Shown piece by piece: positions 701-16,442 of a stretch of DNA of 64,000 bases. The stretch is from Terriglobia bacterium (GTDB lineage: Bacteria; Acidobacteriota; Terriglobia; Terriglobales; Acidobacteriaceae). The notes below the pieces were generated by a model. That model worked only from the letters and a program-made list of their open reading frames with translations. It ran no database searches and was not told the DNA's origin. Every line of letters begins with the position of its first letter. Positions within the stretch are counted from its first letter, which is position 1. The DNA is taken from positions 62,001-126,000 of the forward strand of contig JAIQGE010000023.1 in NCBI GenBank assembly GCA_020072815.1. The letters are read 5' to 3'. Both the position numbers and the translations under genes were made by a program.

Positions 701-2590
701 TCATTCAATCGCAGCACCATCCTGCATTTCGGATAAGGAATCCGGCGGCGCCGCGGCAAAGAAAGCAAGAATGGCGGACATGACTTTGCCCACGCACGTG
801 CGCAGGCTTTCCCTGTCGGCATGGCACTCCACGTCAGGGGCTAGCGGCGCCTCATAAGGATCGTCAATGCCGGTGAACCCCGCGATCTCGCCCCGGCGCG
901 CTTTCCTGTAGAGCCCTTTCGGATCGCGCCGTTCACATACCTCCAGCGGCGTGTTTACATATACCTCAATGAAGTCACCGATCCTGGCGCGTACTTCCTC
1001 ACGCGCGACGCGATAAGGAGAAATGGCGGAAATCAGCACCACGACGCCGTTCCGGGTGAGCAACTCGGCCACCAGCCCGATTCTGCGGATGTTCTCGTCG
1101 CGGTCTTCCTTGCTGAAGCCCAGATCGCTGCAAAACAGCTTGCGGATCACATCGCCATCGAGCACCTCGACACGAAACGCGCGGGCCAGCAACTCCGTAT
1201 AGAGCGCGCTGCAGATCGTCGTTTTTCCCGCGCCACTCAGCCCGGTGAGCCACACCGTGAGCCCGCGCTGCTGCTGCTGGACCAGATTTGAGGGAAGGCC
1301 CGCAACCGGGTTCGTGTGCGGCCCCGGCAGAGGCAGTGAGGACGGAGCTGAAATAATTCCCGCTCCGGCCGTGTCGTTGTTCGAAGGATCGATGAGGATG
1401 AAACTCCCCGTTGCCCGATTGGCGGCGTACGAATCGACGAACGCCGGCTTGTGGGTCTGTATCTCCACCACTCCAACCTCATTCAGGCACAGGTTGTTAC
1501 ACCTGATCTTCTTCAGGGTGCCGGCGTCTGTCCGGTGGAGAATGCTGAGAACACTGCAGCATAGGGTTTGTCCCGCGTGCTTGATAAGATAGGGCCAATT
1601 GACTCGCAAGGGAGTTTGTGACATCCAGATCACGTCCGCGATCAGCCGGTTCGTGACCGCTGGGGGCCGCTCGGGGCAAACCAGCATGTCCCCCCGGGCC
1701 AGGTCAATCTCGTCAGCCAAAGTGAGCACCACCGATTGCGGCGGAAAAGCCTGGTCCAGGCTTCTGGCATGGAGCAGGATCTCTTTGATCCGCGTGGTGC
1801 GGCCCGAAGGCAAGGCAGTGACCTCGTCGCCGGGGCGGATGATCCCCGACGCAACCTGCCCGGCGTAGCCGCGGAAATCCTGGTTCGGACGCACCACGTA
1901 CTGCACGGCAAACCTGAAATCATGCAGGTTGCGGTCATCTTCGATGGGAAGCGTCTCCAGCAGCTCCAGCAATGACGGCCCGTTGTACCAGCCCATCTTG
2001 TTGCTGCGCCGCACTACGTTGTCGCCGGTGAGGGCGCTCACGGGAAGAAAGTAGGTTTCTACTCCGTTCATGTATCCACTGGCCGCGTTGAACTTTTCCT
2101 TGATGGACTGGAAAACCGGTTCGCTGAAGCCGACCAGGTCCATCTTGTTCACTGCAACCACCATCCTCCGGATGCCCAGCAGCCGCGTCAGGTAGGCATG
2201 TCTGCGTGTTTGTTCCAGAATGCCTTTGCGGGCTTCCACCAGGAGCACAACCGCGTCCGCCGTGGAAGCTCCGGTGACCATGTTGCGCGTATATTGCTCG
2301 TGACCCGGAACGTCCGCGATAATGAATTTCCGTTTTTTCGTGGAAAAATAACGGTAAGCCACGTCAATGGTGATTGCCTGCTCGCGCTCGGCTTTCAAGC
2401 CATCGGTGAGGAGAGAAAGGTCCATGCCGCTTGTCGTCCGCCCTGAGGCTTTGCGGATTGAATCCAACTGGTCCTGGTAAACGCCGCCTGACTCATAGAG
2501 CAGGCGGCCGATCAGTGTCGATTTGCCATCGTCCACGCTGCCGGCGGTCAGAAACCGCAGCATGTCACGCGCTTGTGCTGGAGAGCTCAA
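701..2590 (-). CDS. cysNC: Bifunctional sulfate adenylyltransferase subunit 1 / APS kinase
   Basis: The N-terminal half is a translation-factor-like GTPase ([19 protein letters not shown]), typical of the CysN subunit that drives APS formation with CysD. The C-terminal ~180 residues are an APS kinase with its own P-loop (GLSGAGKTT, near residue 450) and the family motif VLDGDVIRK. The fusion therefore turns sulfate and ATP into PAPS, the sulfate donor. Start: the TTG at 2590 overlaps the cysD stop and has a strong GGGAGGG six nt upstream, giving 629 residues; an ATG at 2563 is possible but has no ribosome binding site. No reductive-pathway genes (cysH, cysI) are nearby, while a sulfotransferase gene lies just upstream of cysD, so the PAPS is probably meant for sulfation rather than for assimilation. 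Confidence 0.95.
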
Positions 2591-3564
2591 AAATATCCCT
2601 CCCTTTTCTTCAGCTCCATGGAAGCTTCCTGGTCGTGATCGATCACTCGGCTCTCGCGCTCCGAGCGTGTGAGCGTTTGCAGCTCTTCCACGATTTTCGG
2701 AACCGTGTCCGCAGTCGACAGCATGGCGCCCGTACAGTAAGTGCAACCCAGGGAGCGCATCCGACATGAGATTTTTTGCGCCTCCTCTCCGGGCAGCAGT
2801 TTCCCGGCGTGCTGCAGCGGAATGATCATGTTTCCGCGGATGACCACTTCGCGGAGTTCCGCGAAATAGAGAGGCACCACGGGTATGTTTTCGCGCTCGA
2901 TGTACTGCCAGATGTCCAGCTCCGTCCAGTTCGAAAGCGGAAATACTCGTATGCTTTCTTCCTTGTTGGTGCGCGTGTTATAGATGTTCCACAGTTCGGG
3001 GCGCTGGTTCTTCGGCTCCCATTGTCCAAAAGAGTCGCGAAACGAAAACACTCTTTCTTTGGCCCGCGACTTCTCTTCCTCGCGCCGCGCGCCTCCGATC
3101 GCGGCATCGACGTTGTGGGTCCTGAGCGCATCAAGGAGCGCCTGGGTCTTCAGCAGGGCGCAACAACGCGTAGTGCCGAGCCGGAAAGGATTGGCGCCTT
3201 CCTGGATTGCCTGGAGATTGGAATGCACGATCAGCCGCAAACCCAACTGGCGGCAATTCCGGTCGCGAAATTCGATCATCTCGCGGAACTTGAATCCCGT
3301 ATCCACATGCAACATGGGGAACGGGACTTTATCGGGATAAAAGGCCTTCTGCGCAAGGCGCAGCATGACGGACGAGTCTTTCCCGATGGAGTAGAGCATC
3401 ACGGGATTCGCGAACTCGGCTGCCACCTCCCGAAGTATGTGAATGCTTTCCGCCTCGAGGAGATCCAGATGGGAAAGTCGCGGGACGCGCAGGTCCGCCT
3501 CCCGCGCTCTCGCGGTGAAAACTTCCATTCCGGGCTGTGGTTTGGCCGATGTGGGCATGATCAC
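2587..3564 (-). CDS. cysD: Sulfate adenylyltransferase subunit 2
   Basis: A 325-residue PP-loop ATPase with the motif [10 protein letters not shown] near residue 58, TGFKFREM, the [14 protein letters not shown] segment and the conserved C-terminal [11 protein letters not shown] and KKREGYF tail of CysD. It adenylates sulfate, with CysN supplying GTP-driven energy. The GTG at 3564 (or the ATG at 3558 two codons later) follows the sulfotransferase stop by only a few nt, and the end overlaps the cysNC start, so the three genes form one transcription unit. Confidence 0.95.
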
Positions 3565-3567
3565 GTT

Positions 3568-4629
3568 CTAATTCATTTGGGTGGCCGCCAGCGGCTGCGA
3601 TGCGGTGCTCTTCGCCAGCGTGGGTGCGAATACGTCGAGGCCGGGCCAGGCGTGGCGCGCCGCCCATTCCATGCCGGCATCCGCCTCGGCGCTCCAGCAT
3701 CTCTCCAGTTCCGTAATTTCAGCGGCGCGTGTACTCGCATCGTACGGCCGGGAAAGGTCCTTGGAATACCTGGCGACCGAAGGATGTGACACGAGCCAGT
3801 CCAGTTGCGCGTCGTCGACGGGAAGCCGGCAGAGCGCAGTGATCGCCGCCAGCGTCTGCCGTGGCGACTCCGCCACTTCGTCGCCGTCGACGAGCAGCAC
3901 GCGGGAACGATGCGGGCCGCAAAGCAGCTCCTCGGCAAGATATCTGTGCACCAGCCACAGGCATGCGGACGATTCCGCCACGCTCAATTGCTCCAGGTTT
4001 TTGCCGGCGATCCGGGGCCAGGTTGCGCCCCGCTTGAATATCTGCCGGACCCGCATCCCTGCCCAGTCCCGCCGCTCGCCTGATTTCAAAATGGACAATA
4101 TAAAATTCCGCAGCGGGATCATCAGAAATGTGATCGTTGCCTCCGGGTTGTGTTGCAGCAGCCGGTGGCCAATCATGCTGCAGCAATCCACGGGCTTCAT
4201 GACAACCATCTGATCGGGATCGTAAGTGCGTGAAAGCAACCGCAGGCATAAATCAAAGGCAGCATCCCACCAGGGCAGGGATTGGCGTTCCACCATCGCC
4301 ATCTGGGCCAGCAAACGCGGTTCCTTGAGCACGAAGCAGGATGGAAGTAGTTCGAAATAGCGGGCGAGCAGCGTTGAGCAGCAATAGGCTGAGTTCAGGA
4401 TGTAATGGGTGCGCTTGCGCGCAGCCGGCTGCCTGGTGGCAGCCAGCAAAAGATCGGCTAGCCGGAAATCGTAGGTGCCCTCTCCGGCCGGACGGGCCCG
4501 GAGATCTAGAAATACTGAATTGCGGTAACTTTCCCGGGACATGCGAAGGAACGTGAGAATACTCCGTTCCGTATCCAGCAGCAGCGGATAGAGATCAGGG
4601 GATATAAACAGGTCTTGTAATCGATTCAT
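3568..4629 (-). CDS. PAPS-dependent sulfotransferase-like protein
   Basis: A 353-residue protein. Around residues 74-90 the run HYILNSAYCCSTLLARY has the shape of the sulfotransferase 5'-phosphosulfate loop. A later segment, ITFLMIPLRNFILSILKSG, fits the 3'-phosphate-binding strand with an Arg-x-x-x-x-x-x-S pattern (R...S). No membrane anchor or signal peptide is seen, so it should act in the cytoplasm. It lies directly upstream of cysD and cysNC, whose product PAPS it would use. The acceptor is unknown. Because the same strand carries a TOMM pathway immediately upstream, a sulfated peptide is a reasonable but unproven idea. An alternative is a lipid or glycan acceptor. Confidence 0.7.
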   Translation of the reverse strand: MNRLQDLFISPDLYPLLLDTERSILTFLRMSRESYRNSVFLDLRARPAGEGTYDFRLADLLLAATRQPAARKRTHYILNSAYCCSTLLARYFELLPSCFVLKEPRLLAQMAMVERQSLPWWDAAFDLCLRLLSRTYDPDQMVVMKPVDCCSMIGHRLLQHNPEATITFLMIPLRNFILSILKSGERRDWAGMRVRQIFKRGATWPRIAGKNLEQLSVAESSACLWLVHRYLAEELLCGPHRSRVLLVDGDEVAESPRQTLAAITALCRLPVDDAQLDWLVSHPSVARYSKDLSRPYDASTRAAEITELERCWSAEADAGMEWAARHAWPGLDVFAPTLAKSTASQPLAATQMN

Positions 4630-4698: not shown

Positions 4699-5343
4699 TC
4701 ACCACAGGTATCCATCGAGAAATAGCGATCCCTGGATCGCGTCCATCCCCGTCCGGGCAGAGGCTATTCCGTAAGCACGGCGGGTGTCATGTACCAGTAA
4801 TTGGTTGAACTGAAGTTGCAGGTCGATCAGGCTGGCGACCCCGGCAGCATGGTTCCGCGGCCCTGAAACGCTTTCTGATATCAGCTTGATCCGCCCCGCA
4901 TCTCTGGCCTTATTGCGGGTCAGGGAAACCAGGTAATGCCACCGTGCTTCAGTGCTGTCACGCAGCAGCTCGCGCCGGCAGCCGTCAACGTAGACCCGCA
5001 GCTGCGGCGTAGTGACGTAAGAACAGCCGATGGTGTCTTTGCCCCACGCACGCAGGGCATCGGTAAGCTCGTTTAAGGCTTCTTGTGAAAAAAATCGTTC
5101 CGCGGTCGCGGTAAGGAACTGGTACGTATCCCGGCGAAACACGTACAACAATGCGGTCAAGCCGTCATTAGATTCCACGGCAGCCGTCATCTGTTTCTCG
5201 AATTGGGACCAGAGAGTGTCCACGTTACTCAAGAAATTGGTCTGCAGATAAAAAGGAGGGTCCGCAACCAGCGATGGCCCCTCCTTCCAGGGATGCAAAC
5301 TCGCCTTCATCTCTTTGAATTTCTGAACTAAAGCACTTTTCAT
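4699..5343 (-). CDS. Hypothetical protein, weakly 2OG-Fe(II)-oxygenase-like
   Basis: A 214-residue soluble protein that I cannot place firmly. The stretch LRVYVDGCRRELLRDS...YLVSLTRN recalls the core strand of some 2-oxoglutarate/iron oxygenases, in which the expected metal site is H-x-D before the SLT strand. Here that position reads LLRDS, with Leu in place of the first His, so if the relationship is real the protein may have lost iron-dependent activity. It lies between the SagB fusion gene and the sulfotransferase gene on the same strand with gaps of about 70-80 nt, so it is likely part of the same operon and may act on, or bind, the peptide product. Confidence 0.55.
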   Translation of the reverse strand: MKSALVQKFKEMKASLHPWKEGPSLVADPPFYLQTNFLSNVDTLWSQFEKQMTAAVESNDGLTALLYVFRRDTYQFLTATAERFFSQEALNELTDALRAWGKDTIGCSYVTTPQLRVYVDGCRRELLRDSTEARWHYLVSLTRNKARDAGRIKLISESVSGPRNHAAGVASLIDLQLQFNQLLVHDTRRAYGIASARTGMDAIQGSLFLDGYLW

Positions 5344-5422: not shown

Positions 5423-7990
5423 TTATTTGGCGCCTTGGGCCCCATAACCAACGGCAAAGGCAAGCAGACTAGCGTGTTTGTAACCATCAAATCCGAACTG
5501 CCGCCGTGCCGCGCCGGGCACAACTCCAGCGACCAGGCAACCGGCAAGGCCCATTCCCAGCCCGGCCATCCAGAGCCGGTGGCCGGCTGATCCTGCGCGT
5601 AAAAGCAATAGCCGATGTCCAAACGAGCCATGGCGGGTGCATGCCGCAACCAGATTTCCAAAACTCCATATCACCACGGGTGCCGCTGAGAACTCGGGTT
5701 GGGGGAACAGTTCCAACGCATCTTGTTTTGAAGGAGCGGGAGCGATCCACGCCAGTTCATGGCGCGACGGCTGATATCGATAGATTCCGGGCTCGCATCC
5801 TTCCACCTTCAACGCAAGCACGATGAACGTCAGCGGAAGCCCAGCCGCGTGTTCTTCAGGCCACACATGCATGTCTTCCGCATAGGCACATTGCAACATG
5901 GTGCTGATCTGGCTCAAGGACACGGGCTCGTGGCCGTAATGGCGTGTGGAATAACGCCGGCCAAAATTATCGGAAATCAGCCTTCCTCCCCGCGCCGGTT
6001 CCGGCAATGGAACCAGGTTTTCCTCCTGCTGGTCGCGGACGAGAAGCTCCTGCGGAATGTGTGCGGGCGGCGCTTCAAGATCCTGTTCCAGCCGTCTACT
6101 TTCGCGATAGAGTGTTTGCACGATCTCATGCACGGGCAGGTCACGGAACTCATGCGCCGCTTTGCCCGATGCGGGCACACAGCCCGCCAAAGACTTTTCC
6201 TGAGAGTGATCGCTCGAAACCGCCGCCGTTCCATACAGCTCGGCTACTGCCGTCGACTGCTCCTGCCAGGGTTCGAGATTCAACTGCTCTTCCATTAAAT
6301 CGTCTGCCCAGAGCTTCGCGGTGCTGGACCGGATTCCCAGGGCTGTTGCCGCCAGATGCATCTGGCTCAGCGCGGCCCCGGCATCTAGATTTACCAGGCG
6401 GTAGCCGAATGGTCCGTACTTGCGGCTGAGCCGGTGATAAGCGCCGGTAAAGAGCACGAGAGCATCCGGCAATTCATCCCCTCTTTTGCGCACCAGGCGC
6501 TGCATGAACTCGCCTGCTTTCAGCTCGCCTCCGCGGCGGTGGAAAGCTGCCAGGGAATGCTCGCGCGGCTGGTACAAATAGAGTCCCGGGGGCAGGCCGT
6601 CCACATTGCGGGCCAGCAAGTAGAGTTCAACCGAGCCAAGATTTCCCGCGGTGGCTGCCCATCTCTTTGTCTGTTCCTCTCCTCGAGCGGATTCCCGGAT
6701 GCCGCCGGTCAACATGAGAATGGCGGCGACTTCTCGCAGTGTGAGCGGTTGATTGGAACCGACAGACCGTTCATGGAGGACGTCCAGGCTGCCGCGGTCC
6801 AGCTTCGGCATTTCACCCGGTAAAGCAAAAAGAGGGCAATTGGGCGCCCGCTTGGTCTCAAAGGTGAGCGCAATTGCTTTCTGCGCGGTCGCGGCGCCGT
6901 TGTTCGGCCCGGAAAAGGCCAGCGATTGTATGCTGACGCAGTCCTCGAAGACGGTCGCCGTGTGCAAAAGCTTACTGTTCATCGGGAAAACTGCCGGAAT
7001 CGGACGACACTTTTCGCATCCCGGAATGCGCGGCACAGACAGACGGCTGGCCTGCCACTCCTTCATGCGATATCGTTGGAAATCATGGCCGGTGGTAGGC
7101 GGCGCCATCTTGCTCAAAAGGTAGATAACTTCAACCGCCACCATGCTCAGCCAGAATTGAATTTCGTCGGCGCTCAGGGTTGCAGCACTATCCACAGGCG
7201 CAACCGTGGGAATCGGGCCATGTACGGCCTGGAAACAGCCGTAGCACGCGCTCGACTTTTCGCTGAACAACGGTCCAATGTCAGCCACATTGTCCACTGA
7301 ACCCACAGATACTCGCAACCAGGAGAGATGATGATTCCGGCACCAGTCATCGACCGAAAAGTGCCACTCAACGTCCTCGGGGCCGAACGCAAGAGAAATA
7401 ACGAGAGATTGCTCTGGCGCAACCCCCGATGCGGGAGACAACCCATTCAACGATTCCCGGTCAAGCAAGAGCACGCGGCCTACTCCCGTTGTTTCAAGCA
7501 CAGACTTCAGCGCCTGCTCCTGTCGTCCGCCGCCGAGAATGACCACTTCTGACGTTTGCAGCCTTTTATAGGCCTGCTCGCCGCTGGAGTTTGTCCCGGT
7601 TACGCCAACATGACGGCGGAAAAAATCCAGCGTTTGCTGGTTCGCGGTGGGGTCAGGTTCGGCAACCCCGTTTTCGATCAGGCCGCAGTTAAAGAGCAGG
7701 CTCACGGTGGTTTGGACGTGTTCCGCGGGAACACCCGGCACAGCAGATTCGAGTTCTAGCAGGGTCCGTGTGCCATCCAGCAGGGCCATGACTGCCGGAA
7801 GCACGTTCCGCGTTGACTTGCCGCGAAGGATCTGCAGGTAACTGGTCCCGTCCACGATCAGCTCTTCCCGGAATGGCAGCAGCACGAGTTCGCGCACCAG
7901 GCGAGGGCGTATCTTCGCCAACAGCGACGAAACGGGCATCTTGCTGAATTGTTGCCGTAAAGACGGGGCCCGAGGTCTCATCGTCACCAT
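5423..7990 (-). CDS. Fusion of TOMM E1-like leader-binding protein with two SagB-type nitroreductase domains
   Basis: An 855-residue protein. Residues ~25-340 match E1-like TOMM cyclodehydratase partner proteins (leader recognition): a winged-helix-like front (LPFREELIVDG, LLDGTRTLLELE), a Rossmann-like stretch, and two CxxC pairs (CYGC, CEKC) fit for structural zinc. Residues ~400-600 (LTLREVAAILMLTGG, GGLP-like PPGLYLY) and ~640-855 (RYSTRHYGHEPVSLSQ, GIYRYQP, AGLGMGLAG) are two SagB/ThcOx-type flavin dehydrogenase domains, which oxidise azolines to azoles. The second copy keeps more of the typical sequence. I took the ATG at 7990, with GGGG about 7 nt upstream, overlapping the preceding stop. 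A fused E1 plus double dehydrogenase keeps cyclisation and oxidation on one chain. It is cotranscribed with the second E1-like gene and ycaO. Confidence 0.85.
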   Translation of the reverse strand: MVTMRPRAPSLRQQFSKMPVSSLLAKIRPRLVRELVLLPFREELIVDGTSYLQILRGKSTRNVLPAVMALLDGTRTLLELESAVPGVPAEHVQTTVSLLFNCGLIENGVAEPDPTANQQTLDFFRRHVGVTGTNSSGEQAYKRLQTSEVVILGGGRQEQALKSVLETTGVGRVLLLDRESLNGLSPASGVAPEQSLVISLAFGPEDVEWHFSVDDWCRNHHLSWLRVSVGSVDNVADIGPLFSEKSSACYGCFQAVHGPIPTVAPVDSAATLSADEIQFWLSMVAVEVIYLLSKMAPPTTGHDFQRYRMKEWQASRLSVPRIPGCEKCRPIPAVFPMNSKLLHTATVFEDCVSIQSLAFSGPNNGAATAQKAIALTFETKRAPNCPLFALPGEMPKLDRGSLDVLHERSVGSNQPLTLREVAAILMLTGGIRESARGEEQTKRWAATAGNLGSVELYLLARNVDGLPPGLYLYQPREHSLAAFHRRGGELKAGEFMQRLVRKRGDELPDALVLFTGAYHRLSRKYGPFGYRLVNLDAGAALSQMHLAATALGIRSSTAKLWADDLMEEQLNLEPWQEQSTAVAELYGTAAVSSDHSQEKSLAGCVPASGKAAHEFRDLPVHEIVQTLYRESRRLEQDLEAPPAHIPQELLVRDQQEENLVPLPEPARGGRLISDNFGRRYSTRHYGHEPVSLSQISTMLQCAYAEDMHVWPEEHAAGLPLTFIVLALKVEGCEPGIYRYQPSRHELAWIAPAPSKQDALELFPQPEFSAAPVVIWSFGNLVAACTRHGSFGHRLLLLRAGSAGHRLWMAGLGMGLAGCLVAGVVPGAARRQFGFDGYKHASLLAFAVGYGAQGAK

Positions 7991-7992
7991 GT

Positions 7993-8667
7993 TCAATCCC
8001 CTTCTCCACTTGCCGAATCCCAGAGATGTGCGAGCTCTTCATGCATGCGGACGAAGGTCCGTGCCGGCGCGGCGCGATTCAGCCCGCATCGCGGACAACC
8101 ATGCATACCGATTACCAGACTCTTGGTAATCTCGCGGGTCAGCATATGAATCTGCCAGATTTGCCCGGCGATGGGTTCCTGGTCCAACAGTTGCTGAATG
8201 GTGTGCGACAGCCTGGCAGCCGCCATTACGGCAAATGGCTCCAGAAATCCACGGGGACCGGACTCAGGTTGCCGCGCATAGTGGTCCAGCAATGCCGTTT
8301 CCGCTTCCGACCATTCCGCATGCTGCTTGAAACGTCGCATCCAACAGCTCCAGCATGGGCCTTCGCCGGGAACCACAACAGGGCCGAGACGAAGAGCGCC
8401 CGAGACCTGAAATAAAGGTACAAATGGCCGTTGCCGCTGGTAGCTGAACTCTTCCAGCAGTTCGCACAGGTTTGGGTTGGGACGCCAGCCCGCTATCACG
8501 GTCACACGGCTATCAGGCCACACGCCGGGTATGGGAACCGTGTCGTTCATTACCACCGTTTCGATGACTTCAGACCGCTGCGCTTTCAGCCGCGCGGCAA
8601 CAGCCTGTCCGAAATCGCCTACCGAAAATATGTGAACTGTGCTGGGCGACGTGTCTCGTTTGTTCAT
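7993..8667 (-). CDS. TOMM precursor leader peptide-binding (E1-like) protein
   Basis: A 224-residue protein with the compact build of cyclodehydratase partner proteins: VHIFSVGDFGQAVAARL at the N-terminus is a Rossmann-like start, and two CxxC pairs (CWSC near residue 120 and CPRC near 197) should bind zinc. These proteins bind the precursor leader and activate YcaO. The end overlaps the start of the E1-SagB fusion gene by a few nt, and it follows ycaO by 36 nt, so the three are translated from one message. Having two E1-like proteins, one free and one fused, suggests that one may have become a scaffold or may serve a different leader. Confidence 0.85.
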   Translation of the reverse strand: MNKRDTSPSTVHIFSVGDFGQAVAARLKAQRSEVIETVVMNDTVPIPGVWPDSRVTVIAGWRPNPNLCELLEEFSYQRQRPFVPLFQVSGALRLGPVVVPGEGPCWSCWMRRFKQHAEWSEAETALLDHYARQPESGPRGFLEPFAVMAAARLSHTIQQLLDQEPIAGQIWQIHMLTREITKSLVIGMHGCPRCGLNRAAPARTFVRMHEELAHLWDSASGEGD

Positions 8668-8703
8668 CTTTAAACCCGGCTGCCCGGTTTTCCGGACCTC
8701 ATC

Positions 8704-10029
8704 TCATGCAAATGGCTGTGGCCATTGGTTTAATCTCTCTTCCGGATGGACCGGATAGCCCATCTGTTCCGGCCCTTCATAAAGGCGCGGATGTGCGAGA
8801 TAGCGTGCGCGATAGTGAAAAGCGAGCGGCTGGAGGCGCGGTATCAATACCCGCACCACGCGCATGCCTGCTCGCAAGGCTTCGTCCGTGCTCAGATCAA
8901 CGGCGAATGCCTCAAGCTGTTTCTGCTTGAGCCTATCCAGCACCGTGCGCAAGGCCTGCCTGGAATCCGCGTTGGACATGCCAGGCATTTCACTCAAGAG
9001 CCGCGTGCGGCCGGAGTGCACAAGGAAATCGAATGCACCGGCCTGTTCAGCGCGCGCCATGTAGCTGGCGCCATGGAATATTTCCGTGAACTCCTCCAGG
9101 TTTTCGGGGGTGGGCCTGGGTTGCCGGAAGGCTATCCGGCCCGCGGCCATTTCACGAATCGAACCCATTACGGCCGTTGCGGGATCAAGCGACGTGCTGC
9201 AAGAGACGAGGGTCGTCACTCGCCTGTTCGCCGGGGACAACTGCAAGCCGTAGACGGTCGGAAGCCCCACGTCTGTCGTGGCATCGAAAAACATGTACTC
9301 CAGTTCCTTGCATGCACGCTGGTACCGCTCCAAAAATGAGGCCAGCTCTCCGGAGAAGAGATCGAGTTCAAGGCGCGGAAGTGGAAGCTGCTGGAGCCAA
9401 GTGAGGCTGATGGCATCGCGCTCCACCACCTCCAGAATGCCCGCCAGCAATGCAGACTCCAACGTGGTGTGTGCGGCGCAGCCGGTGGAGATCGGAAACC
9501 AGATTCGTTCGCCCGGCCCTTCGATTCCGGCATAGAGATAAATCATTATCACCGGCAGATAGACCTGCCTGCCGTCAAAAAGCGAGATACCTTTCACCCA
9601 TCGAATTGGAAGGGCCTTATCCGGCAACAGGAGAGGGCATCTCGGATTTGAGAGTTCGTTGGCGCTGCATCGAGGAATAATCGAGAGGTCCAGTGCCGCG
9701 CCTCCCAGTTCATTGGCGCTGGCGCGGATAAACTGGTCATCGGTCAAAACGCAGGCGCAATATCTCTCCAAGGCTTCCGCTTTTGCCCGGACAGCGGCGG
9801 CAGGCTCGCTCAGGCCAACTCCCGCTCCCTCCACTGATTCGCGCACATGGGGACCGCGCCGTTTCCTGCCCACATTGGACCAGACCTGTCCCACGTCGCC
9901 GAGCCGCTCAATCCTCGTGAAAAGAAGCGGCTCGTCCGATGCGGCGCGAAAGCGCGTGAATCCGCCGAGCAACCCTCCGAGCGGTTGGAATAAACCATTC
10001 AATTTATCGGGTTGATGACCGGGATCCAT
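8704..10029 (-). CDS. YcaO-family cyclodehydratase
   Basis: A 441-residue YcaO protein. It shows the ATP-binding signatures KAEALERYCA (near residue 88), ILEVVERDAISL (near 203) and SIREMAAGRI (near 298). It ends NQWPQPFA; a proline-rich C-terminus of this kind is found in azoline-forming YcaO enzymes, where it inserts into the active site. The reaction is ATP-dependent cyclodehydration of Cys, Ser or Thr in a precursor peptide, and the neighbouring E1-like proteins supply leader binding. The gene starts with an ATG preceded by AAGGGTGGG and is the first gene after the regulated promoter at 10078-10141, so it opens an operon that runs through the E1, SagB and sulfation genes. Confidence 0.92.
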   Translation of the reverse strand: MDPGHQPDKLNGLFQPLGGLLGGFTRFRAASDEPLLFTRIERLGDVGQVWSNVGRKRRGPHVRESVEGAGVGLSEPAAAVRAKAEALERYCACVLTDDQFIRASANELGGAALDLSIIPRCSANELSNPRCPLLLPDKALPIRWVKGISLFDGRQVYLPVIMIYLYAGIEGPGERIWFPISTGCAAHTTLESALLAGILEVVERDAISLTWLQQLPLPRLELDLFSGELASFLERYQRACKELEYMFFDATTDVGLPTVYGLQLSPANRRVTTLVSCSTSLDPATAVMGSIREMAAGRIAFRQPRPTPENLEEFTEIFHGASYMARAEQAGAFDFLVHSGRTRLLSEMPGMSNADSRQALRTVLDRLKQKQLEAFAVDLSTDEALRAGMRVVRVLIPRLQPLAFHYRARYLAHPRLYEGPEQMGYPVHPEERLNQWPQPFA

Positions 10030-10077
10030 AGCCCACCCTTGTTCGGTTCACGCAGAAGCCTTACGAATGTAGCGGAG

Positions 10078-10141
10078 ATTCTATCGTTCAAATTTGATTT
10101 TCATAGAGCGTGAGCTACACAGTTTGGACATTGATTGGACA
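10078..10141 (-). promoter_or_regulatory. Predicted regulated promoter of the ycaO operon
   Basis: On the minus strand TGTCCAATCAATGTCCAAA (10141-10123) contains two direct TGTCCAA copies 11 bp apart, about one helical turn. After exactly 39 bp comes TAGAAT (10083-10078), a likely -10 box, and the ycaO ATG is 48 nt further on. The same layout recurs upstream of the precursor gene (15996-16059). No good -35 box is seen, as expected for an activator-dependent promoter. The nearby AraC-type gene (15999-16442) is the obvious candidate activator. Confidence 0.65.
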
Positions 10142-10248
10142 TAAGTGGAAGAAGCTGAGGCAGGCTCTTGAACGGTTGTTTGTTTCCATAAACTGCGCAA
10201 AAGCCCGCGCGCCTTTGATGGCCTGACATGCCGCCAGGCCATCGCCAC

Positions 10249-11385
10249 TTACGGAACGGCAAACGCCATAGTGGGAGTTTGGCCAACCTGAAGCTGCCGG
10301 ACGGCTTTGCCGGCAGCCACATCAATGACCGTCACCGCGGCCTTATCAGGGCTGACCGCATACAGGGTTTTTCCATCGCCACTCATGGTAAGAGTATAGA
10401 AACGGACGTTCGTGGGAATGCTTCCCTTGGGGGACAGCGTTGCAGGATCCACCGCGGTCACCTCGTCGTACGCGCTGGAATAGACGTCGCCCGAGGTCGC
10501 CTGGTCGCCGAAAAATACGGTCGAGTTGTCCTTGGCCAGCAAGCCTTTTTGCATGCCCAGGTAGCGCTTCAAGTCCGTGGCCGGAGCAGCCGAGTTGACC
10601 CTGCCCTGCTGGCGGTCCACCACCAGGTGAGCGCCGTTGGCGGCGAACAGGCCGACCTTTTGCGAAGGATCCAGGAAAGCCAACTGCCATTGGCGCGACC
10701 GCGTGGTGCGCTCCGGGGTGGCGGTAATCCCTCTGGTCTTGGTGGTGGCGTCGGAATCGCCGAACGTGATGTCTCTTACCACGGAGCTATAGTTGCAAAC
10801 CACGGCTGCCTTCAGGTCCTCCGCCGAGGGAAGTATCAGCATGCCCGGACAATTGGGCAAAAGGGCGTGCGCGGGCAGGAATTGCCTGGTCGTGGTGTTG
10901 AACGCCGACAGATAAAATTCCCCGTAGCCGAGCCAACGCCCCTTGAGCATGTAAATCCATTTCCCGGATGGCGCCATGGCCATTCGGGTCGGGTATGCGG
11001 GCATGGTCGCATTGACCGCATCAGGATTGGTCATGGAAGCCACCCGGTTTCCGGAGCTGTCATAAATCTCGAGGCGATTGTCTACATTCCCTGCGACCCA
11101 ATACTGCGAAGTAACGTAGAGCGCGCTGCCGTCCGGAGCCATAGTCATGTCCGGCGATGTACCCGCCGTTATCGTGCGAATCACCGTGCCCTGGGCGGGA
11201 TCCACCAAGAGGATGCTGGAGGTGGGGCCAAGTTTCTGGGTGTCGAGAACGTAGAGCAATCCCGACTTTGCAGCGCCAGTCTGCGACCAGCCGCTCCAGG
11301 TCCCAAGCAGCACCATCGCAATTAATGAAATCCATGTATGCACTTTGCGTGCTTTGCCTTTCGCCGTATCGAAACTCATAGCCAT
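10249..11385 (-). CDS. Secreted beta-propeller, methylamine dehydrogenase heavy chain (MauB)-like
   Basis: A 378-residue protein with an N-terminal signal (hydrophobic ISLIAMVLLGTWSGWSQ) followed by repeated propeller strands (LLYVLDT, SILLVDPAQG, MTMAPDGSALYVTS, MAMAPSGKWIYML, LTMSGDGKTLYAVSP, VTVIDVAAGKAVRQL). Size, a segment like NRLEIYDSSGN followed by PTRMAMAPSGK, and the ending RQLQVGQTP fit the seven-bladed heavy chain of methylamine dehydrogenase, which pairs with the MauA light chain; a generic YVTN-type propeller is the alternative. It is the last gene of the mau-like set (mauE-mauD-mauA-mauF-mauB order), which supports the MauB reading. AAGGAG precedes two close ATGs (11385 and 11379); the second has better spacing. 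Confidence 0.7.
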   Translation of the reverse strand: MAMSFDTAKGKARKVHTWISLIAMVLLGTWSGWSQTGAAKSGLLYVLDTQKLGPTSSILLVDPAQGTVIRTITAGTSPDMTMAPDGSALYVTSQYWVAGNVDNRLEIYDSSGNRVASMTNPDAVNATMPAYPTRMAMAPSGKWIYMLKGRWLGYGEFYLSAFNTTTRQFLPAHALLPNCPGMLILPSAEDLKAAVVCNYSSVVRDITFGDSDATTKTRGITATPERTTRSRQWQLAFLDPSQKVGLFAANGAHLVVDRQQGRVNSAAPATDLKRYLGMQKGLLAKDNSTVFFGDQATSGDVYSSAYDEVTAVDPATLSPKGSIPTNVRFYTLTMSGDGKTLYAVSPDKAAVTVIDVAAGKAVRQLQVGQTPTMAFAVP

Positions 11386-11459: not shown

Positions 11460-12266
11460 TTATTTCACACCCAAGGTGATCAGGAACACCCCTGTTATCG
11501 CCAGAGCCACGGCGCTGGTGATGAAAGATGCCGGCCACCATAGCTGGGTTATAGAGTTATACCTACCCTGCTTTTCCTGGTCTCCTTTCGCTGCGAGATA
11601 CAGCGCCCACAAGGGAAAGTTCCGGGACAATGCGTAAATTACCATGACGGTGATGCCCCAGCGAATACCTCCGGCCAACACCACCCATCCCATCACCAGA
11701 TAGAGCGCATTGGTAATCCTGGTCAGGAAACCCGCGCCCAGACATAGTCCGAAGAAAACCGCCGCCATGGCTTCGGGCATCTTCACCAGCCAGATGCGAG
11801 GCACCTGCCAGGTTGACTCTGGTAGGTGCAGTTGAGTTAACCGGGCGGCCCGCAGGGCCAGGAGGAACGCTACCACACCGATGAAGACGTTCACCGCCGC
11901 CATTCGCCCGTTCACCAATCGCTGCATCAGGTTTCCCAGCCCACCCAGGACAAGCCCGCCGATCAAACCGCCTATTAGGCTGCCGCCCGTGTGGGCCAGG
12001 AGCACAACCGGCATCTTTCTCCCACCTGCTTCTTTCCCGTAGACCACGGGAATCATGGTCCCGGCCATGGAGCCCCCTCAAGGAGACCAGAGCGCCGCAA
12101 TGCCGGCCCAAAAAGCCAGGCATCCCATGACCCAGAACGATCCCACGTGCGGAAACCAATAAGCTACAAATAAGGCGACGCAGCTCATGATTCCCAGCAA
12201 CGCCAAGCGGCGGCGCCTGCTGGGCATGGTAACCGCGTAGGTCGTAGCTTCACAAGAGTGCGTCAT
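11460..12266 (-). CDS. MauF/CcdA-like membrane protein with in-frame UGA (possible selenocysteine)
   Basis: Two open frames, 12266-12081 and 12077-11460, lie in the same reading frame and are separated only by a TGA (12080-12078). Read through, they give 268 residues with about six membrane segments. The join reads AALWSP-(UGA)-GGSMAG, and the UGA sits where DsbD/CcdA/MauF-type proteins have the Pro-Cys of their first redox helix. A partner Cys is kept in the later helix (FFGLCLGAGFLT). A hairpin lies 18-36 nt after the UGA. This fits a selenocysteine codon. The alternatives are a nonsense mutation, or restart at the ATG 12068, which does have GAGGGGG upstream. Role: such proteins move reducing or oxidising equivalents across the membrane for MauA disulfides. 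It starts 6 nt after the mauA stop. Confidence 0.65.
12042..12060 (-). promoter_or_regulatory. SECIS-like hairpin downstream of in-frame UGA
   Basis: On the minus strand GACCATG, loop ATTCC, CGTGGTC forms a seven-pair stem with one G-T pair. It begins 18 nt after the UGA at 12080-12078. Opening the top pair leaves a seven-base loop with G first. Position and loop G agree with the general bacterial SECIS pattern, but the pattern is loose and no folding calculation was done. Confidence 0.4.
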
Positions 12267-12272
12267 AGGTCC

Positions 12273-12815
12273 CTAGAACCCAAATGGTCCGTTGCACGCG
12301 TTGCATGGCCCACCCGCGGTTACGATCGTGCACGCATAGGGCGCGCCAAAGGGGTAAACCGTGATCTGAATGCCCTGATTGCAGCCGTTGCTGCAAGGTG
12401 TGCCCCTGCAGGCGCTGAGATTGGTCGACGAAGTCCCAATGCAATCCCGATATGCGAACTGGGTGCCGTTTTGGCACTGGCAGGTGGTGGAGTCAAAGCA
12501 GCATCCGAACCACGCTCCGCCCTGGGTCGTACAATTCGGACAGGTGGAAACTCCTCCGGAGCCGCCGCAGCAGCTCGAGCTCCCGGAGCACAGGTTGCCG
12601 CACATCCCGCAGGTCGTCCAGTCGCAGCTGCCAACCGGAGTCTCGTCGCAACCGAGGGACGGCAACAGAGGTACAAGGGCCAGGCCGGATAGCGAGAGCA
12701 GCGTCTTTCCTATTTTGACCATTGCTCCGCGCCGGGAGAATTTCTGCGAATGTTTAGCCAGATATCGCGCTACTCGTGCGTCTAAATTGTCCTGAATATC
12801 CCGTTCGTCATTCAT
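12273..12815 (-). CDS. Methylamine dehydrogenase light-chain (MauA)-like protein
   Basis: A 180-residue Cys-rich exported protein. The N-terminal ~50 residues carry SRRGAMVKIG plus a hydrophobic stretch ending LPSLGC, a likely Tat leader as in MauA. The mature part keeps MauA landmarks: CDWTTC, GGAWFGCCF (aligns with the SWVASCY that holds TTQ Trp57) and FAYRDC (aligns with IAYRDC). It holds 20 Cys, more than usual for MauA. The region where MauA has the second TTQ tryptophan (Trp108, IIWCFG) reads QITVYPFGAPYAC, with no Trp. It can therefore not form a standard tryptophan tryptophylquinone. Start ATG 12815 has GAGGAT upstream and follows mauD by 4 nt. No mauG is seen nearby. Confidence 0.75.
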   Translation of the reverse strand: MNDERDIQDNLDARVARYLAKHSQKFSRRGAMVKIGKTLLSLSGLALVPLLPSLGCDETPVGSCDWTTCGMCGNLCSGSSSCCGGSGGVSTCPNCTTQGGAWFGCCFDSTTCQCQNGTQFAYRDCIGTSSTNLSACRGTPCSNGCNQGIQITVYPFGAPYACTIVTAGGPCNACNGPFGF

Positions 12816-12819
12816 TTTG

Positions 12820-13479
12820 CTATCCTCGCGGTCCATTTCCGTTGACTGTTTTAGACTCCAGAGAATCCCCGTGCCCGGCCGCTGCCTGCCCCAAAGCGCG
12901 CTGATAGTACTCCACATTGCCGGAAACTCCCAGGTCGAGAGCATTCAGCAAGCTGTCGAGATGCTCCTTGCTGTTTACCAGGCCTTTGCTGCGCAAGATC
13001 CCCTCACGGTCGATTAGGAGAGCGTAGGGAGCGGTAAATACCATCATGCCGAAAGCAAAATCCTTAGAGAAGATGTACGGGAGGTGCGACAGTCCATGTT
13101 TTTTGGCGTAGCGTTTGTTGCTTTCCGCGTCGCCGTTGAAAGTGGCCAGCACCACGGAGATATGCCGCTCCTGCCGCACCAGGGCCACGATCGCCGGAGC
13201 GAGCTGCTCGCAGACCGAACATCCTTCGGATAGAAAGAGCACCAGCGTGTTTTTCTCGTTGGAAGGCACCTGTACCTTGTTGGCATAAATGTCTTCTATT
13301 TCGAATTTCTGAACTGCGCGTCCCACCTGTGGGCCTACTCTGGTTGCCTTGGCTCCAGCCGGCAAAATGCGCCCATGCAGGAGAGCAATCTGGCGAGTCA
13401 TAACCAGAATAGCCACGCACAACAGCAACAGCAGGACCCAAGCCGCGATGTAAGAGCCCACAAAGAGACTCGACGCCAT
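12820..13479 (-). CDS. MauD-like membrane-anchored thioredoxin-fold protein
   Basis: A 219-residue protein with one N-terminal membrane helix (AAWVLLLLLCVAILVM) and a periplasmic thioredoxin-like domain. The redox motif is EGCSVCEQL near residue 93, followed by TAPYALLIDREGI and a cis-Pro region. Size, topology and position between the mauE and mauA homologues fit MauD, which helps form the many disulfides of MauA. It lies 10 nt after mauE and 4 nt before mauA. The C-terminal ~40 residues, rich in Gly, Ser and Asn, look like a flexible tail. Confidence 0.8.
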   Translation of the reverse strand: MASSLFVGSYIAAWVLLLLLCVAILVMTRQIALLHGRILPAGAKATRVGPQVGRAVQKFEIEDIYANKVQVPSNEKNTLVLFLSEGCSVCEQLAPAIVALVRQERHISVVLATFNGDAESNKRYAKKHGLSHLPYIFSKDFAFGMMVFTAPYALLIDREGILRSKGLVNSKEHLDSLLNALDLGVSGNVEYYQRALGQAAAGHGDSLESKTVNGNGPRG

Positions 13480-13489
13480 TCAAATACCC

Positions 13490-14059
13490 TCATCGATTAA
13501 GTTCGGTAAATACCACGTTATACGTTCTAAGCCTGTGAATATGCGCGAACAGCTGCCAGGCGACCAGCGCGGAGACGCCCAGGAGCATGGCATCCAGGCG
13601 CCTGAGCCCGGAGAGCGCCTGCGGCGAAGCCACTCTGAACCATCCTGCCGCCAGCATCGAAAACAGGACCAGCACTGTATTGCGAGCCACCAGCCACCAG
13701 CTGATCTCCGATTCGTCGTCGCCGGCGAAACATCCGCAGGAGATTTTGCGGCGGCCGCGCAACAGGTTGATGGCGATGGCGGCCCCGAACACGATAAAAA
13801 GAGCCATCGCGAACAGGGCAGCCGTAGCCAGCAGCGGTTGCTGCATGGCGGCCGCGAGCAACAGAACCAGCCCCAGCAGGCACTCGGTGACGGGAATGGC
13901 CCGGGAGAGAAGCAGCGCCACGCGAAGAGAAACAAGCTGAAATCCGCGGACCGCCGCTTCAAACTTGATCGGATCTCCCATCTTGGCAACGGCCGAGGCG
14001 AGCAGCAGCATTCCTGTGAATGCCTGGCAAGCCGTCATTAAGTAGCTGTTGCTGAACAT
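13490..14059 (-). CDS. MauE-like integral membrane protein
   Basis: A 189-residue protein with four membrane segments of DoxX/MauE type: ACQAFTGMLLLASAVAKM at the front, then AIPVTECLLGLVLLLAAA and later helices. A cytoplasm- or periplasm-facing loop holds RKISCGCFAGDD, the Cys-x-Cys loop typical of MauE. In methylamine-dehydrogenase clusters MauE works with MauD in light-chain maturation. The ATG at 14059 is preferred because GGAG lies about 7 nt upstream; the frame opens 30 nt earlier at a TTG. Confidence 0.82.
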   Translation of the reverse strand: MFSNSYLMTACQAFTGMLLLASAVAKMGDPIKFEAAVRGFQLVSLRVALLLSRAIPVTECLLGLVLLLAAAMQQPLLATAALFAMALFIVFGAAIAINLLRGRRKISCGCFAGDDESEISWWLVARNTVLVLFSMLAAGWFRVASPQALSGLRRLDAMLLGVSALVAWQLFAHIHRLRTYNVVFTELNR

Positions 14060-14177
14060 GGAAGTCTCCGCCTCTTGACTTTCAGTCAAAAAAATACCTG
14101 TGGTCCTGTTGCCGTATTCAATACCGTGCTTTTATGGACGCGGCCATCGACTCGTGCGTCCGACCCGAGGTGCAGGA

Positions 14178-15239
14178 TCACTGCTGCTCGTCGGCGTAGA
14201 TCCTTGCGTCCCACTTGCTCAGAGTCAGCCGCGCCTTCTGCAGATCGGCAGAGCTCATGTTTCCGGTCAATTTGGCCAGCCGGTCTCCAGCGAGCTTGTC
14301 TCCCTGCTGCGAAGCCAGGTTGTACCAGATGAACGCATACACCGGATTTGCGGGAACGCCAATACCGAGTTCAAAGGTACGTCCAAGTGCCCGCTCACCC
14401 GGACCATAGCCGGAACCCGCAGATTGCCGCAGGTATCGAGCAGCGGTAGTAAGGTCCTGCGGCACCTCTGTGCCGGCTTGCAGCATGAGCCCCAGCCGCA
14501 GTGCCGCGATGGCGTTACCCTGCGCCGCGGAATCCGTGAATAATTGGACGGCGCGGTTTGGATTTTTCTGGTCTTTCTGGAGGAATATGCGGCCCAATGC
14601 CAGCTCCGCCCATGGATCTCGCTTGGCCGCTCCTTGATTGAACAGGCTGATGGCTTTGTTCCGGTCCTTGGGAACTCCCTTACCCATCAGGTACATTCTC
14701 CCCAACCAGGCCATTGCGTTCGCATCACCCAGATCCGCCGCTTGCTGGAACAAAGATGCTGCCTGCACGTCATCATGTAGCGCTTTCTGGGCCAGCTGGC
14801 CTGCGAATCTCAAACCGACCGGATCATTGGCAGTTGCCGCCTGCGTGATAAGCGCTATTCCCTGGTCATAGTCCTTGGGCACTCCCCGGCCATACATCAT
14901 GAAGCTGCCCAACCACGCGCTGGCTTCCTGTGAGCCCTGGTTCGAGGCTGCCTTGAACCACCGGGCCGCCTCACTGTAATTTCTGGCGCGGTTGGGGCCC
15001 TGATGGTAAAACTTGGCCACTCTAATCTGCGCCTGTACGTCGCCGGCATTGGCGGCTGCGAGGTCTTTCTGGAATGCAGGGTTGGCGGTTGGGTCGTTTC
15101 CATTGCCGGGAGGGGCCTGCGTCCAGCCCGTCGACACCACGAGCGCCACAAATGCGCAGGTAATCAGGATTCCGCAAAACAACGCACTCTTTTTCCCCGG
15201 CACTTCGCGCATGGTTTCATTTCTGGTGATTCGCAACAT
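14178..15239 (-). CDS. Secreted Sel1-repeat (TPR-like) protein
   Basis: A 353-residue protein with a signal peptide (CGILITCAFVALVVSTGWTQ) followed by about six Sel1-like helical repeats, visible as DVQAQIRVAKFYHQG, GSQEASAWLGSFMMYGRGV, DANAMAWLGRMYLMGKGV and YGPGERALGRTFELGIGV. Such solenoids bind other proteins, here in the periplasm or at the envelope. It lies between the Cys-rich precursor gene and the mau-like genes on the same strand, with about 120 nt on each side, so it may be a scaffold or immunity/escort factor for the product. AAGAGGAA is about 8 nt before the ATG. Confidence 0.88.
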   Translation of the reverse strand: MLRITRNETMREVPGKKSALFCGILITCAFVALVVSTGWTQAPPGNGNDPTANPAFQKDLAAANAGDVQAQIRVAKFYHQGPNRARNYSEAARWFKAASNQGSQEASAWLGSFMMYGRGVPKDYDQGIALITQAATANDPVGLRFAGQLAQKALHDDVQAASLFQQAADLGDANAMAWLGRMYLMGKGVPKDRNKAISLFNQGAAKRDPWAELALGRIFLQKDQKNPNRAVQLFTDSAAQGNAIAALRLGLMLQAGTEVPQDLTTAARYLRQSAGSGYGPGERALGRTFELGIGVPANPVYAFIWYNLASQQGDKLAGDRLAKLTGNMSSADLQKARLTLSKWDARIYADEQQ

Positions 15240-15357: not shown

Positions 15358-15879
15358 TTAGTAGAAGCAGCTGGTGCAGCCTGCGCAGAAGCAGGAGAAG
15401 CAGCTGGAGCAACTGGAGCATCCGCCGCATCCCGTGCAGCCGCAACTGCAGCCGGAACATCCGGAACAACCGGAACAACCGGAACATCCAGAGCAGCTTT
15501 CAATAGGGAGTACCTGATTCGTGGAGGCACCCTGCTGCGCATTTATCAAACCGGTAACGGCGTGCAGGTCAAGAGCATCCGTTGTCAGCGACAAAGCAGC
15601 GCTCTCCATGGGAGCGCCGACTGCACTGCTGGAAACCGAAACCACACGGACGAACGGAAAAATGCCTGTGATCTCCAGGGCGTAATGCCGTTCCTCAGTT
15701 CGCGCGCTGCCCAGTTTCAGCAGCAAGCTCCGCCGGAGGTCATCCGGCACTGCGTGTTTGGACAATCCTCGAGATGAGTTGCGAAAAGGCCAGAATTGTG
15801 TAGCAACCATCCGAACGCAAACTCCGAGGAACACGATGAAAACGAGTACGCGAGTGTGGAACTTCTTAATTGTGATCAT
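15358..15879 (-). CDS. Putative TOMM-type precursor with membrane-anchored leader and Cys/Ser/Gly core
   Basis: A 173-residue protein. Residues ~8-22 form one hydrophobic segment (RVLVFIVFLGVCVRMVA), then about 100 ordinary residues follow (unrecognised; ALEITGIFPFVRVVSVSSS), and the last 46 residues are almost only Cys, Ser, Gly, Thr and Phe, beginning SCSGCSGC and ending TSCFY. I count 16 Cys, 13 Ser and 2 Thr in that tail, with Cys at about every third place. Tails like this are substrates for YcaO cyclodehydratases, one of which is encoded 5 kb downstream with the same promoter element. Start: ATG 15879 with GGGGTGG just upstream; a TTG at 15945 in frame would add 22 residues and would give a leader length like that of ycaO. 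An alternative is a structural metal-binding or disulfide-rich tail. Confidence 0.72.
   Translation of the reverse strand: MITIKKFHTRVLVFIVFLGVCVRMVATQFWPFRNSSRGLSKHAVPDDLRRSLLLKLGSARTEERHYALEITGIFPFVRVVSVSSSAVGAPMESAALSLTTDALDLHAVTGLINAQQGASTNQVLPIESCSGCSGCSGCSGCSGCSCGCTGCGGCSSCSSCFSCFCAGCTSCFY
15454..15489 (-). repeat. Four tandem 9-bp repeats inside the core-peptide coding region
   Basis: On the plus strand the unit GGAACAWCC occurs four times back to back (15454-15489), encoding part of the Ser-Gly-Cys series. Near-identical codons in tandem suggest that the tail grew or shrinks by slippage, which would vary the number of cyclisable residues between strains. Confidence 0.8.
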
Positions 15880-15963: not shown

Positions 15964-15980
15964 TCACAGTCAGACTGTGA
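15964..15980 (-). promoter_or_regulatory. Perfect inverted repeat in the precursor mRNA leader
   Basis: TCACAGTC-A-GACTGTGA forms an 8-bp perfect palindrome with one central base, between the predicted TAGAAT -10 box and either possible start codon of the precursor. It may be a repressor site just downstream of the transcription start or, less likely because the loop would be too tight, part of a larger mRNA structure. Confidence 0.45.
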
Positions 15981-15995
15981 TCTGACAGCATGTGG

Positions 15996-16059
15996 ATTCT
16001 ATTCTTTGATGACCACAGCGCAAGCAACTTGATGAGACACTTTGGATGTTGATTGGACA
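15996..16059 (-). promoter_or_regulatory. Predicted regulated promoter of the precursor operon
   Basis: On the minus strand TGTCCAATCAACATCCAAA (16059-16041) differs at 2 of 19 positions from the element upstream of ycaO. After exactly 39 bp lies TAGAAT (16001-15996). The element sits within the 3' end of the AraC-type regulator gene. The predicted leader then carries a perfect inverted repeat (15964-15980) before the start codon. Confidence 0.65.
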
Positions 16060-16442
16060 GATCTGGAATTTGCCGGCTTGCCCCGCGTGCGCGGACCCAC
16101 CGCCACAGCTTCAAAGTTACGATCTGCTCGAAGTTCCTTTGGCGAGCAACCTACGCTGCTCTTGATGAACCTGGAAAAAGATCTTTGTGACCGATAGCCC
16201 AACTGGAAAGCAACTTCCTTGATGCTCTGATGAGGATTGTTATCAAGCAGGCCCCTGGCATACTCCAACAGCATTTCACTGCGCAACTCGCGAAACGTTC
16301 TCGAGGTCGCTTGTTTGACCGCTTTCTCGATGGTATGGCGTTCAACGCCGATCCGAGTGGAAAGCTCATTCAAGGATAGATACGGGGTGGAGCGCAGATT
16401 GAGTTGTATGCGGTTGAACAGCCCATTCAGATCGTATGACAT
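15999..16442 (-). CDS. AraC-type HTH transcriptional regulator without sensor domain
   Basis: A 147-residue protein made almost only of an AraC DNA-binding domain: first HTH around LSLNELSTRIGVERHTIEKA, second around SIKEVAFQLGYRSQRSFSRF, ending GCSPKEL. A ~40-residue basic tail follows. No ligand-binding domain is present, so control may depend on its own level or on a partner. It starts at an ATG with GAGGAGAG six nt upstream. It is the most upstream gene of the minus-strand locus and contains one copy of the shared 19-bp element in its 3' end. I infer that it activates the precursor and ycaO promoters. Confidence 0.88.
   Translation of the reverse strand: MSYDLNGLFNRIQLNLRSTPYLSLNELSTRIGVERHTIEKAVKQATSRTFRELRSEMLLEYARGLLDNNPHQSIKEVAFQLGYRSQRSFSRFIKSSVGCSPKELRADRNFEAVAVGPRTRGKPANSRSVQSTSKVSHQVACAVVIKE

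Follow-up and report, generated by a model that had tools for sequence, protein, structure and literature searches.

Bufferins provide the precedent for an export signal on a Cys-rich RiPP precursor: in the available part of the paper (PMC12452194), the modification is done by MNIO enzymes with DUF2063 partners, and it is described as highly unusual for a RiPP precursor to carry an export signal. Candidates of another kind were reported by decRiPPter in Streptomyces, where mauE, once together with mauD, adjoins Cys-rich putative precursors; according to the accessible portion of that paper (PMC7794033), its genomes hold no further mau orthologues. The accessible part of a third report deals with other clusters (PMC7298704). 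In the open-access literature, from which subscription papers and preprints stand apart, we recognised no description of a YcaO enzyme, an export signal and mau genes in combination.

Our locus lies in a 64,000-nucleotide stretch of contig JAIQGE010000023.1 of a Terriglobia bacterium, the whole of which is called the window here. Every gene assigned between 16442 and 277 lies on the minus strand, and the genes of the window and their parts are given below for this strand. The precursor gene (15358..15879) translates to 173 aa and a stop. The first 127 aa form a leader that has a single hydrophobic stretch near its N-terminus, and the other 46 residues form a Cys/Ser/Gly tail (15361..15498), a putative core by its composition and Cys spacing. 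A preliminary description made from the same DNA had given this architecture; the leader of about 127 residues with one hydrophobic segment is confirmed from the translation, and the tail numbers proved correct on recount (16 Cys, 13 Ser and 2 Thr in 46 residues, with 10 Gly). In open frames of at least 100 codons, the rest of the window has at most 11 Cys per 46-residue stretch. Twelve of the 15 Cys-Cys gaps in the tail are three residues, a number reached by none of 5000 tail shuffles, and the pattern of a Cys at every third residue is common to this tail and the cores adjoining related YcaO genes.

The enzymes of a TOMM pathway are encoded in the same gene run. They comprise a YcaO cyclodehydratase (8704..10029; TIGR03604 1.8e-87, above cut-off), an E1-like TOMM leader-binding protein (7993..8667; TIGR03882 1.2e-13, above cut-off) and a protein in which an E1-like N-terminal part is fused to two SagB dehydrogenase domains (5423..7996; TIGR03605 4.8e-40 in two stretches). 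The N-terminal side of this fusion gives weak ThiF (0.01) and TIGR03882 (0.0048) signals. Thus the pathway enzymes that had been placed in the locus are there, at 5423-10029, with the qualification that of the two E1-like proteins claimed one is clear and the second is a weak signal. Four features by which a TOMM/LAP cluster is recognised, YcaO, its leader-binding E1-like partner, a SagB-type dehydrogenase and a Cys/Ser/Thr-rich C-terminal core on the precursor, are found in the window; a further one, azol(in)e rings in the product, is predicted. The same genome has a second YcaO on another contig (L001, G000:C22:54162-55118), in an ORF of 611 aa whose N-terminal part is much extended.

The genes that separate the precursor from ycaO encode a Sel1-repeat protein (14178..15239; PF08238 1.1e-38, homologue in L017 2.7e-48) and homologues of MauE, MauD, MauA, MauF and MauB, to which we return below. 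Two proteins on the other side of the enzymes are of unknown family. The first, of 214 aa (4699..5343), is without a Pfam or PDB relative and has a partial match in one relative genome (G660, 1.0e-5); the second, of 353 aa (3568..4629), has no family match. A resemblance to the P-loop of sulfotransferases suggested an identity that was dropped for want of backing from Pfam, PDB and hhalign searches; a Sulfotransfer_3 protein (9.4e-8) is carried by L042. Genes for sulfate activation, CysD and a CysN-CysC fusion (701-3564), come after the cluster in the window, and CysD has no match in L016 or L017.

Transcription of precursor and enzymes appears to be coupled. A promoter block composed of a 23-bp element, 34 nt and ATAGAATC stands ahead of the precursor at 15995..16059 (-) and ahead of ycaO at 10077..10141 (-), so that the shared promoter element of the preliminary description is real, with identical downstream spacing (exactly 34 nt from core to ATAGAATC at both sites). 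The 23-bp core is contained in a 32-nt repeat (10119-10150 and 16037-16068) and, at up to 3 mismatches, has two sites in the whole genome; the reversed control has none. It should be noted that the pattern was derived from its own two sites, hence exact-match shuffles are not independent evidence for it. The precursor-side block sits at the 3' end of a gene for an AraC-type HTH protein (15999..16442; HTH_18 5.8e-17), a probable regulator, which probably drives both matched promoters. A sigma-70 scan gave one match, upstream of neither gene, where 5.7 are expected. A perfect 17-bp palindrome, TCACAGTC-A-GACTGTGA, lies at 15964-15980, downstream of the promoter block and ahead of the precursor; as a shared element it is ruled out, being present in a single copy in the window.

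Homologous precursors occur in an Acidobacteriaceae MAG (L016:8876-9604) and a Pyrinomonadaceae MAG (L017:7821-8360), on the same strand as the cluster genes, and in a Granulicella MAG (L042), where a precursor of 118 aa ends 1 bp ahead of ycaO. L016 and L017 carry the enzymes and also homologues of both unknown-family proteins, with 46-48% identity for the 353-aa one. A second precursor in the L016 genome (L108:9589-10224) comes with copies of two neighbouring proteins and has no YcaO within the 11.3 kb read. Compared with the window by leader-only BLAST, these score 3.6e-8 (L108), 8.9e-7 (L016), 8.8e-6 (L042) and 5.3e-4 (L017). A leader profile built without the window gives it 33.4 bits versus 8.7 for the best of 2000 shuffles, and a held-out profile gives the L017 leader 15.4 bits versus 12.9 for shuffles; the L042 leader is missed by the family profile and scores below its own shuffles. 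Judged by the leader BLAST to other Acidobacteria and the held-out profile, the precursor is a real gene. In the alignment the leaders have in common a signal-like start, a TGxFPFVRV block and a HAVxG stretch. The second of these, which reads TGIFPFVRV at residues 71-79 (15643..15669) in the window, is a block common to the window, L016, L108 and L017 and a possible recognition strand.

These findings bear on several points of the preliminary description. Homologous leaders adjoining YcaO genes in other Acidobacteria, which it had proposed to look for, exist in L016, L017 and L042, and homologues in genomes devoid of YcaO, which it had named as evidence against itself, were not seen: the five precursors come from four genomes, all with this YcaO. 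Its assignment of the protein as a TOMM-type precursor is backed by the enzymes, the shared promoter element, the Cys pattern and the adjacency of precursor and ycaO in L042. A single-sequence precursor search of 100 relatives returned the genome's own match and two others (G010 5.1e-4, G041 9.9e-4), both weak, of low complexity and with an internal stop in each. A three-gene cassette is present twice in the L016 genome (L108:8974-11251 and L016:6944-8833) and consists of a precursor and two proteins that look secreted, one of about 200 aa and the other of 320-410 aa; neither partner has a match in the window. One protein encoded beside the L016 cluster (L016:16481-18763, minus strand) combines a PQQ-type propeller with an aspartyl/asparaginyl beta-hydroxylase domain.

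A single YcaO query found no match in the genome contigs; a search with a four-row YcaO alignment found 168, the best 80 of which were kept. In the YcaO tree, the window, L016, L017 and L042 form one clade (100/98), joined next by L018 (98/93) and then by Bacillota (100/98), some of which have thiopeptide genes. The same picture emerges from a quick tree of the E1-SagB fusion (91), with L042 on a long branch and L018 partial. For L018, the next YcaO relative, we found no such precursor in the locus, whose contig ends inside the cluster, or in the genome, and the precursor profile gave 0 hits in 151 relatives of that genome in a run without positive control. Among other genomes of the family, YcaO is matched at 1e-40 in one of 299 (35% identity), and among other genomes of the phylum at 1e-30 in 3 of 395 (27-30%). 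The precursor profile finds three of the four genomes that hold the loci and, in a sample of 199 genomes, that of L016 alone; these genome samples may overlap. The system is rare and was seen in four genomes. Two unrelated observations were made among the compared loci: Actinoplanes regularis (L032:14417-16720) encodes three or more TOMM precursors whose leaders are nearly identical and whose His/Gly/Cys cores differ, and the annotation of a Streptomyces plasmid (L010:7716-9076) splits a YcaO gene into two overlapping pieces.

The tail and the enzymes could also belong to a conventional azole bacteriocin of the heterocycloanthracin type, in which the modified tail would be cleaved from an incidental long leader and act as a diffusible antimicrobial once released. 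The Cys pattern is the same in short-leader TOMM cores, and the heterocycloanthracin model TIGR03601 matches the tail region at 4.4e-5, but its 24.0 bits are below the cut-off of 35 and the other four precursors have no match at E 1. The leader is long and conserved, and mau-type genes stand within the run. ABC ATPase matches are found in none of the four loci with signal-type precursors versus 44 of 77 other loci; the stretches compared differ in length (L042 7.6 kb) and the far end of L016 looks permease-like by eye, so this absence is only consistent with general export. We therefore regard a diffusible bacteriocin as unlikely and prefer an exported, TOMM-modified protein.

The N-terminus of the precursor is of special interest for this preference. 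The preliminary description called the leader unusual, and comparison with 17 control precursors adjoining related YcaO genes (selected by eye) supports it. Residues 1-26 of the window precursor (15802..15879) carry a cationic n-region (+3) and a hydrophobic core (KD12 3.40), a probable export signal. In all five N-termini a charge of +3 to +5 precedes a core of KD12 1.74-3.40, whereas the net charge of the control leaders lies between -4 and -10 and their KD12 reaches 1.76, a value overlapped by the 1.74 of L017. By charge and hydropathy taken together, five of five precursors are signal-like and 17 of 17 controls acidic. Since the cationic n-region and hydrophobic core recur in each of the five, an export signal is likelier than a tether. 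Cleavage sites of export signals end in A, and by eye such sites are plausible in four of the five, L016, L108, L017 and L042 (VRA twice, AHA/AQA and SWA); the putative site of the window, MVA, is poor. Tat export is not preferred: a clear twin Arg ahead of the core is seen solely in L042.

The earlier proposal was that this segment is an uncleaved anchor, by which the modified tail stays tethered to the membrane and offers a surface for redox reactions or metal binding. The hydrophobic stretch is indeed present, the window core exceeds the other four in hydrophobicity, and because the MVA site is poor the anchor is kept as a rival. Against it, the other four precursors have plausible sites, so that across the family the stretch resembles a cleavable signal, and it is just ~12-14 residues. 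We consider a permanent tether quite unlikely; the hydrophobic stretch is more likely a cleavable export signal, as predicted from the five N-termini. As to the role of the tail, a redox or metal-binding function is made somewhat more plausible by the mau-type redox genes of the same run.

The mau homologues were recognised by tblastn with Paracoccus proteins against the window and by family models. They encode a MauE-type membrane protein (13490..14089; PF07291 8.5e-22, Paracoccus MauE 7e-19), a MauD-type thioredoxin-fold protein with CSVC (12820..13479; TIGR02661 8.2e-35, below cut-off, Paracoccus MauD 1.3e-32), a light-chain-like Cys-rich protein homologous to MauA (12273..12812, exact start unsure; Paracoccus MauA 6e-4), a MauF/DsbD-type membrane protein (11460..12068; Paracoccus MauF 0.001, and the L016 homologue matches DsbD_2 at 7e-6) and a beta-propeller distantly homologous to MauB (10249..11385; TTQ_MADH_Hv 1e-6, far below cut-off, Paracoccus MauB 0.003). 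Taken alone, the window light-chain-like protein has no PDB or Pfam match. The relation becomes firmer through its relatives, with matches of the L016 protein to solved MADH light chains (3.2e-7) and of a three-row light-chain profile to those of aromatic amine dehydrogenase (1.7e-5). Homologues of all five are present in L016 and MauD-, MauE- and MauF-like proteins in L017, where BLAST does not back a Cys-rich RR-leader protein as MauA and the propeller was not found. Among the loci compared, MauD and MauE are matched only in the window, L016 and L017; no mau genes were matched in L042 (contig of 7.6 kb) and L018. That the precursor shares its gene run with mau homologues is a new finding, and the recurring link suggests a new use for methylamine dehydrogenase assembly proteins.

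One may suppose that the tail is not a YcaO substrate at all, and that an exported Cys-rich protein has its thiols handled by the MauD/E/F-type proteins only, with YcaO acting elsewhere. The thiol-redox genes do come after the precursor, and azoles are unnecessary for exported Cys-rich proteins. But the single base pair between the L042 precursor and ycaO, the promoter element common to precursor and ycaO in the window and the core pattern known from TOMM-type loci speak for a substrate, and a filtered ORF scan of L016, L017 and L042 revealed no alternative core-like ORF besides the precursor. We find it improbable that YcaO leaves the tail alone. Equally improbable is an ordinary methylamine dehydrogenase operon merely adjoining a TOMM cluster: each of Paracoccus MauF, B, E, D and A has its window counterpart and the L017 genome has two longer MauG-like matches (34% and 32%), but L016 shows the same linkage and L017 part of it, the window gives no tblastn match at 0.1 for amicyanin, MauJ or MauG, MauG in its genome amounts to two 40-42-residue matches inside ~900-aa frames and has no match in the L016 or L042 genomes, and, of what we take to be the cofactor Trp pair of MauA (aligned with Paracoccus and Novosphingobium), the first is kept while the second is Tyr in the window and Trp in L016.

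The explanation that we favour, and think rather probable, is a Cys/azole protein that is modified by the TOMM enzymes, exported, and handled in the periplasm by a Mau set put to a new use. In it, the matched promoters, probably under the neighbouring AraC-type protein, would turn on precursor and enzymes together. The E1-like protein would bind the leader, perhaps via the conserved TGxFPFVRV block, and YcaO and the SagB fusion, by their families, would cyclise and oxidise some tail Cys and Ser to azol(in)es in the cytoplasm. The modified protein would then leave by the general pathway and lose its N-terminal signal, the leader thus doubling as export signal. Beyond the inner membrane the Mau set may act on or with the precursor, with the MauD, MauE and MauF homologues setting the redox state of leftover Cys, and the light-chain-like protein and propeller serving as partners in the window and L016. 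What results is most likely an exported protein, rich in azoles and thiols and active with metals or in redox reactions, whose logic would be comparable to that of bufferins. A bolder version, tentative and on balance doubtful, is a new class of exported azole proteins. In this version, thiopeptide-related YcaO enzymes would have come to act on substrates that bear an export signal, and a methylamine dehydrogenase would have been dismantled, its light-chain fold, propeller and MauD/E/F turning into a partner in the periplasm by which the azole/thiol tail is oxidised, docked or wired to serve as a device for metals or electron transfer.

Compared with described systems, the locus combines features that are otherwise found apart. 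With the heterocycloanthracin group of TOMM/LAP clusters it shares YcaO, the leader-binding E1-like protein, SagB domains and a Cys-rich core at the C-terminus in which every third residue is Cys, but differs in the 127-aa signal-like leader, the mau homologues in the run, the lack of an ABC ATPase nearby and the sub-cut-off TIGR03601 score. The thiopeptide-type azole enzymes of Bacillota (L008, L019, L020, L028) belong to the sister YcaO clade (100/98) and have the same E1-like/SagB arrangement, whereas tblastn with Anoxybacillus proteins detects neither a LanB-type dehydratase nor a related protein in the four signal-type loci (window, L016, L017 and L042). The mauFBEDACJG operon of Paracoccus (L120) has the same MauE, D, A, F and B; what sets a methylamine dehydrogenase apart, both cofactor Trp and MauG with amicyanin in the operon, is not found in the window, where the second Trp is replaced, the gene order is different and a TOMM precursor is joined to the set. 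In contrast to the decRiPPter candidates, five mau homologues stand here together with YcaO enzymes and a signal-like leader. Relative to bufferins, YcaO and SagB take the place of MNIO and DUF2063, for which the locus proteins scanned have no Pfam match. If our explanation is right, the system would be a YcaO counterpart to bufferins, in which cytoplasmic ring formation and general export are joined in a second enzyme class, and the order of modification before export would become testable.
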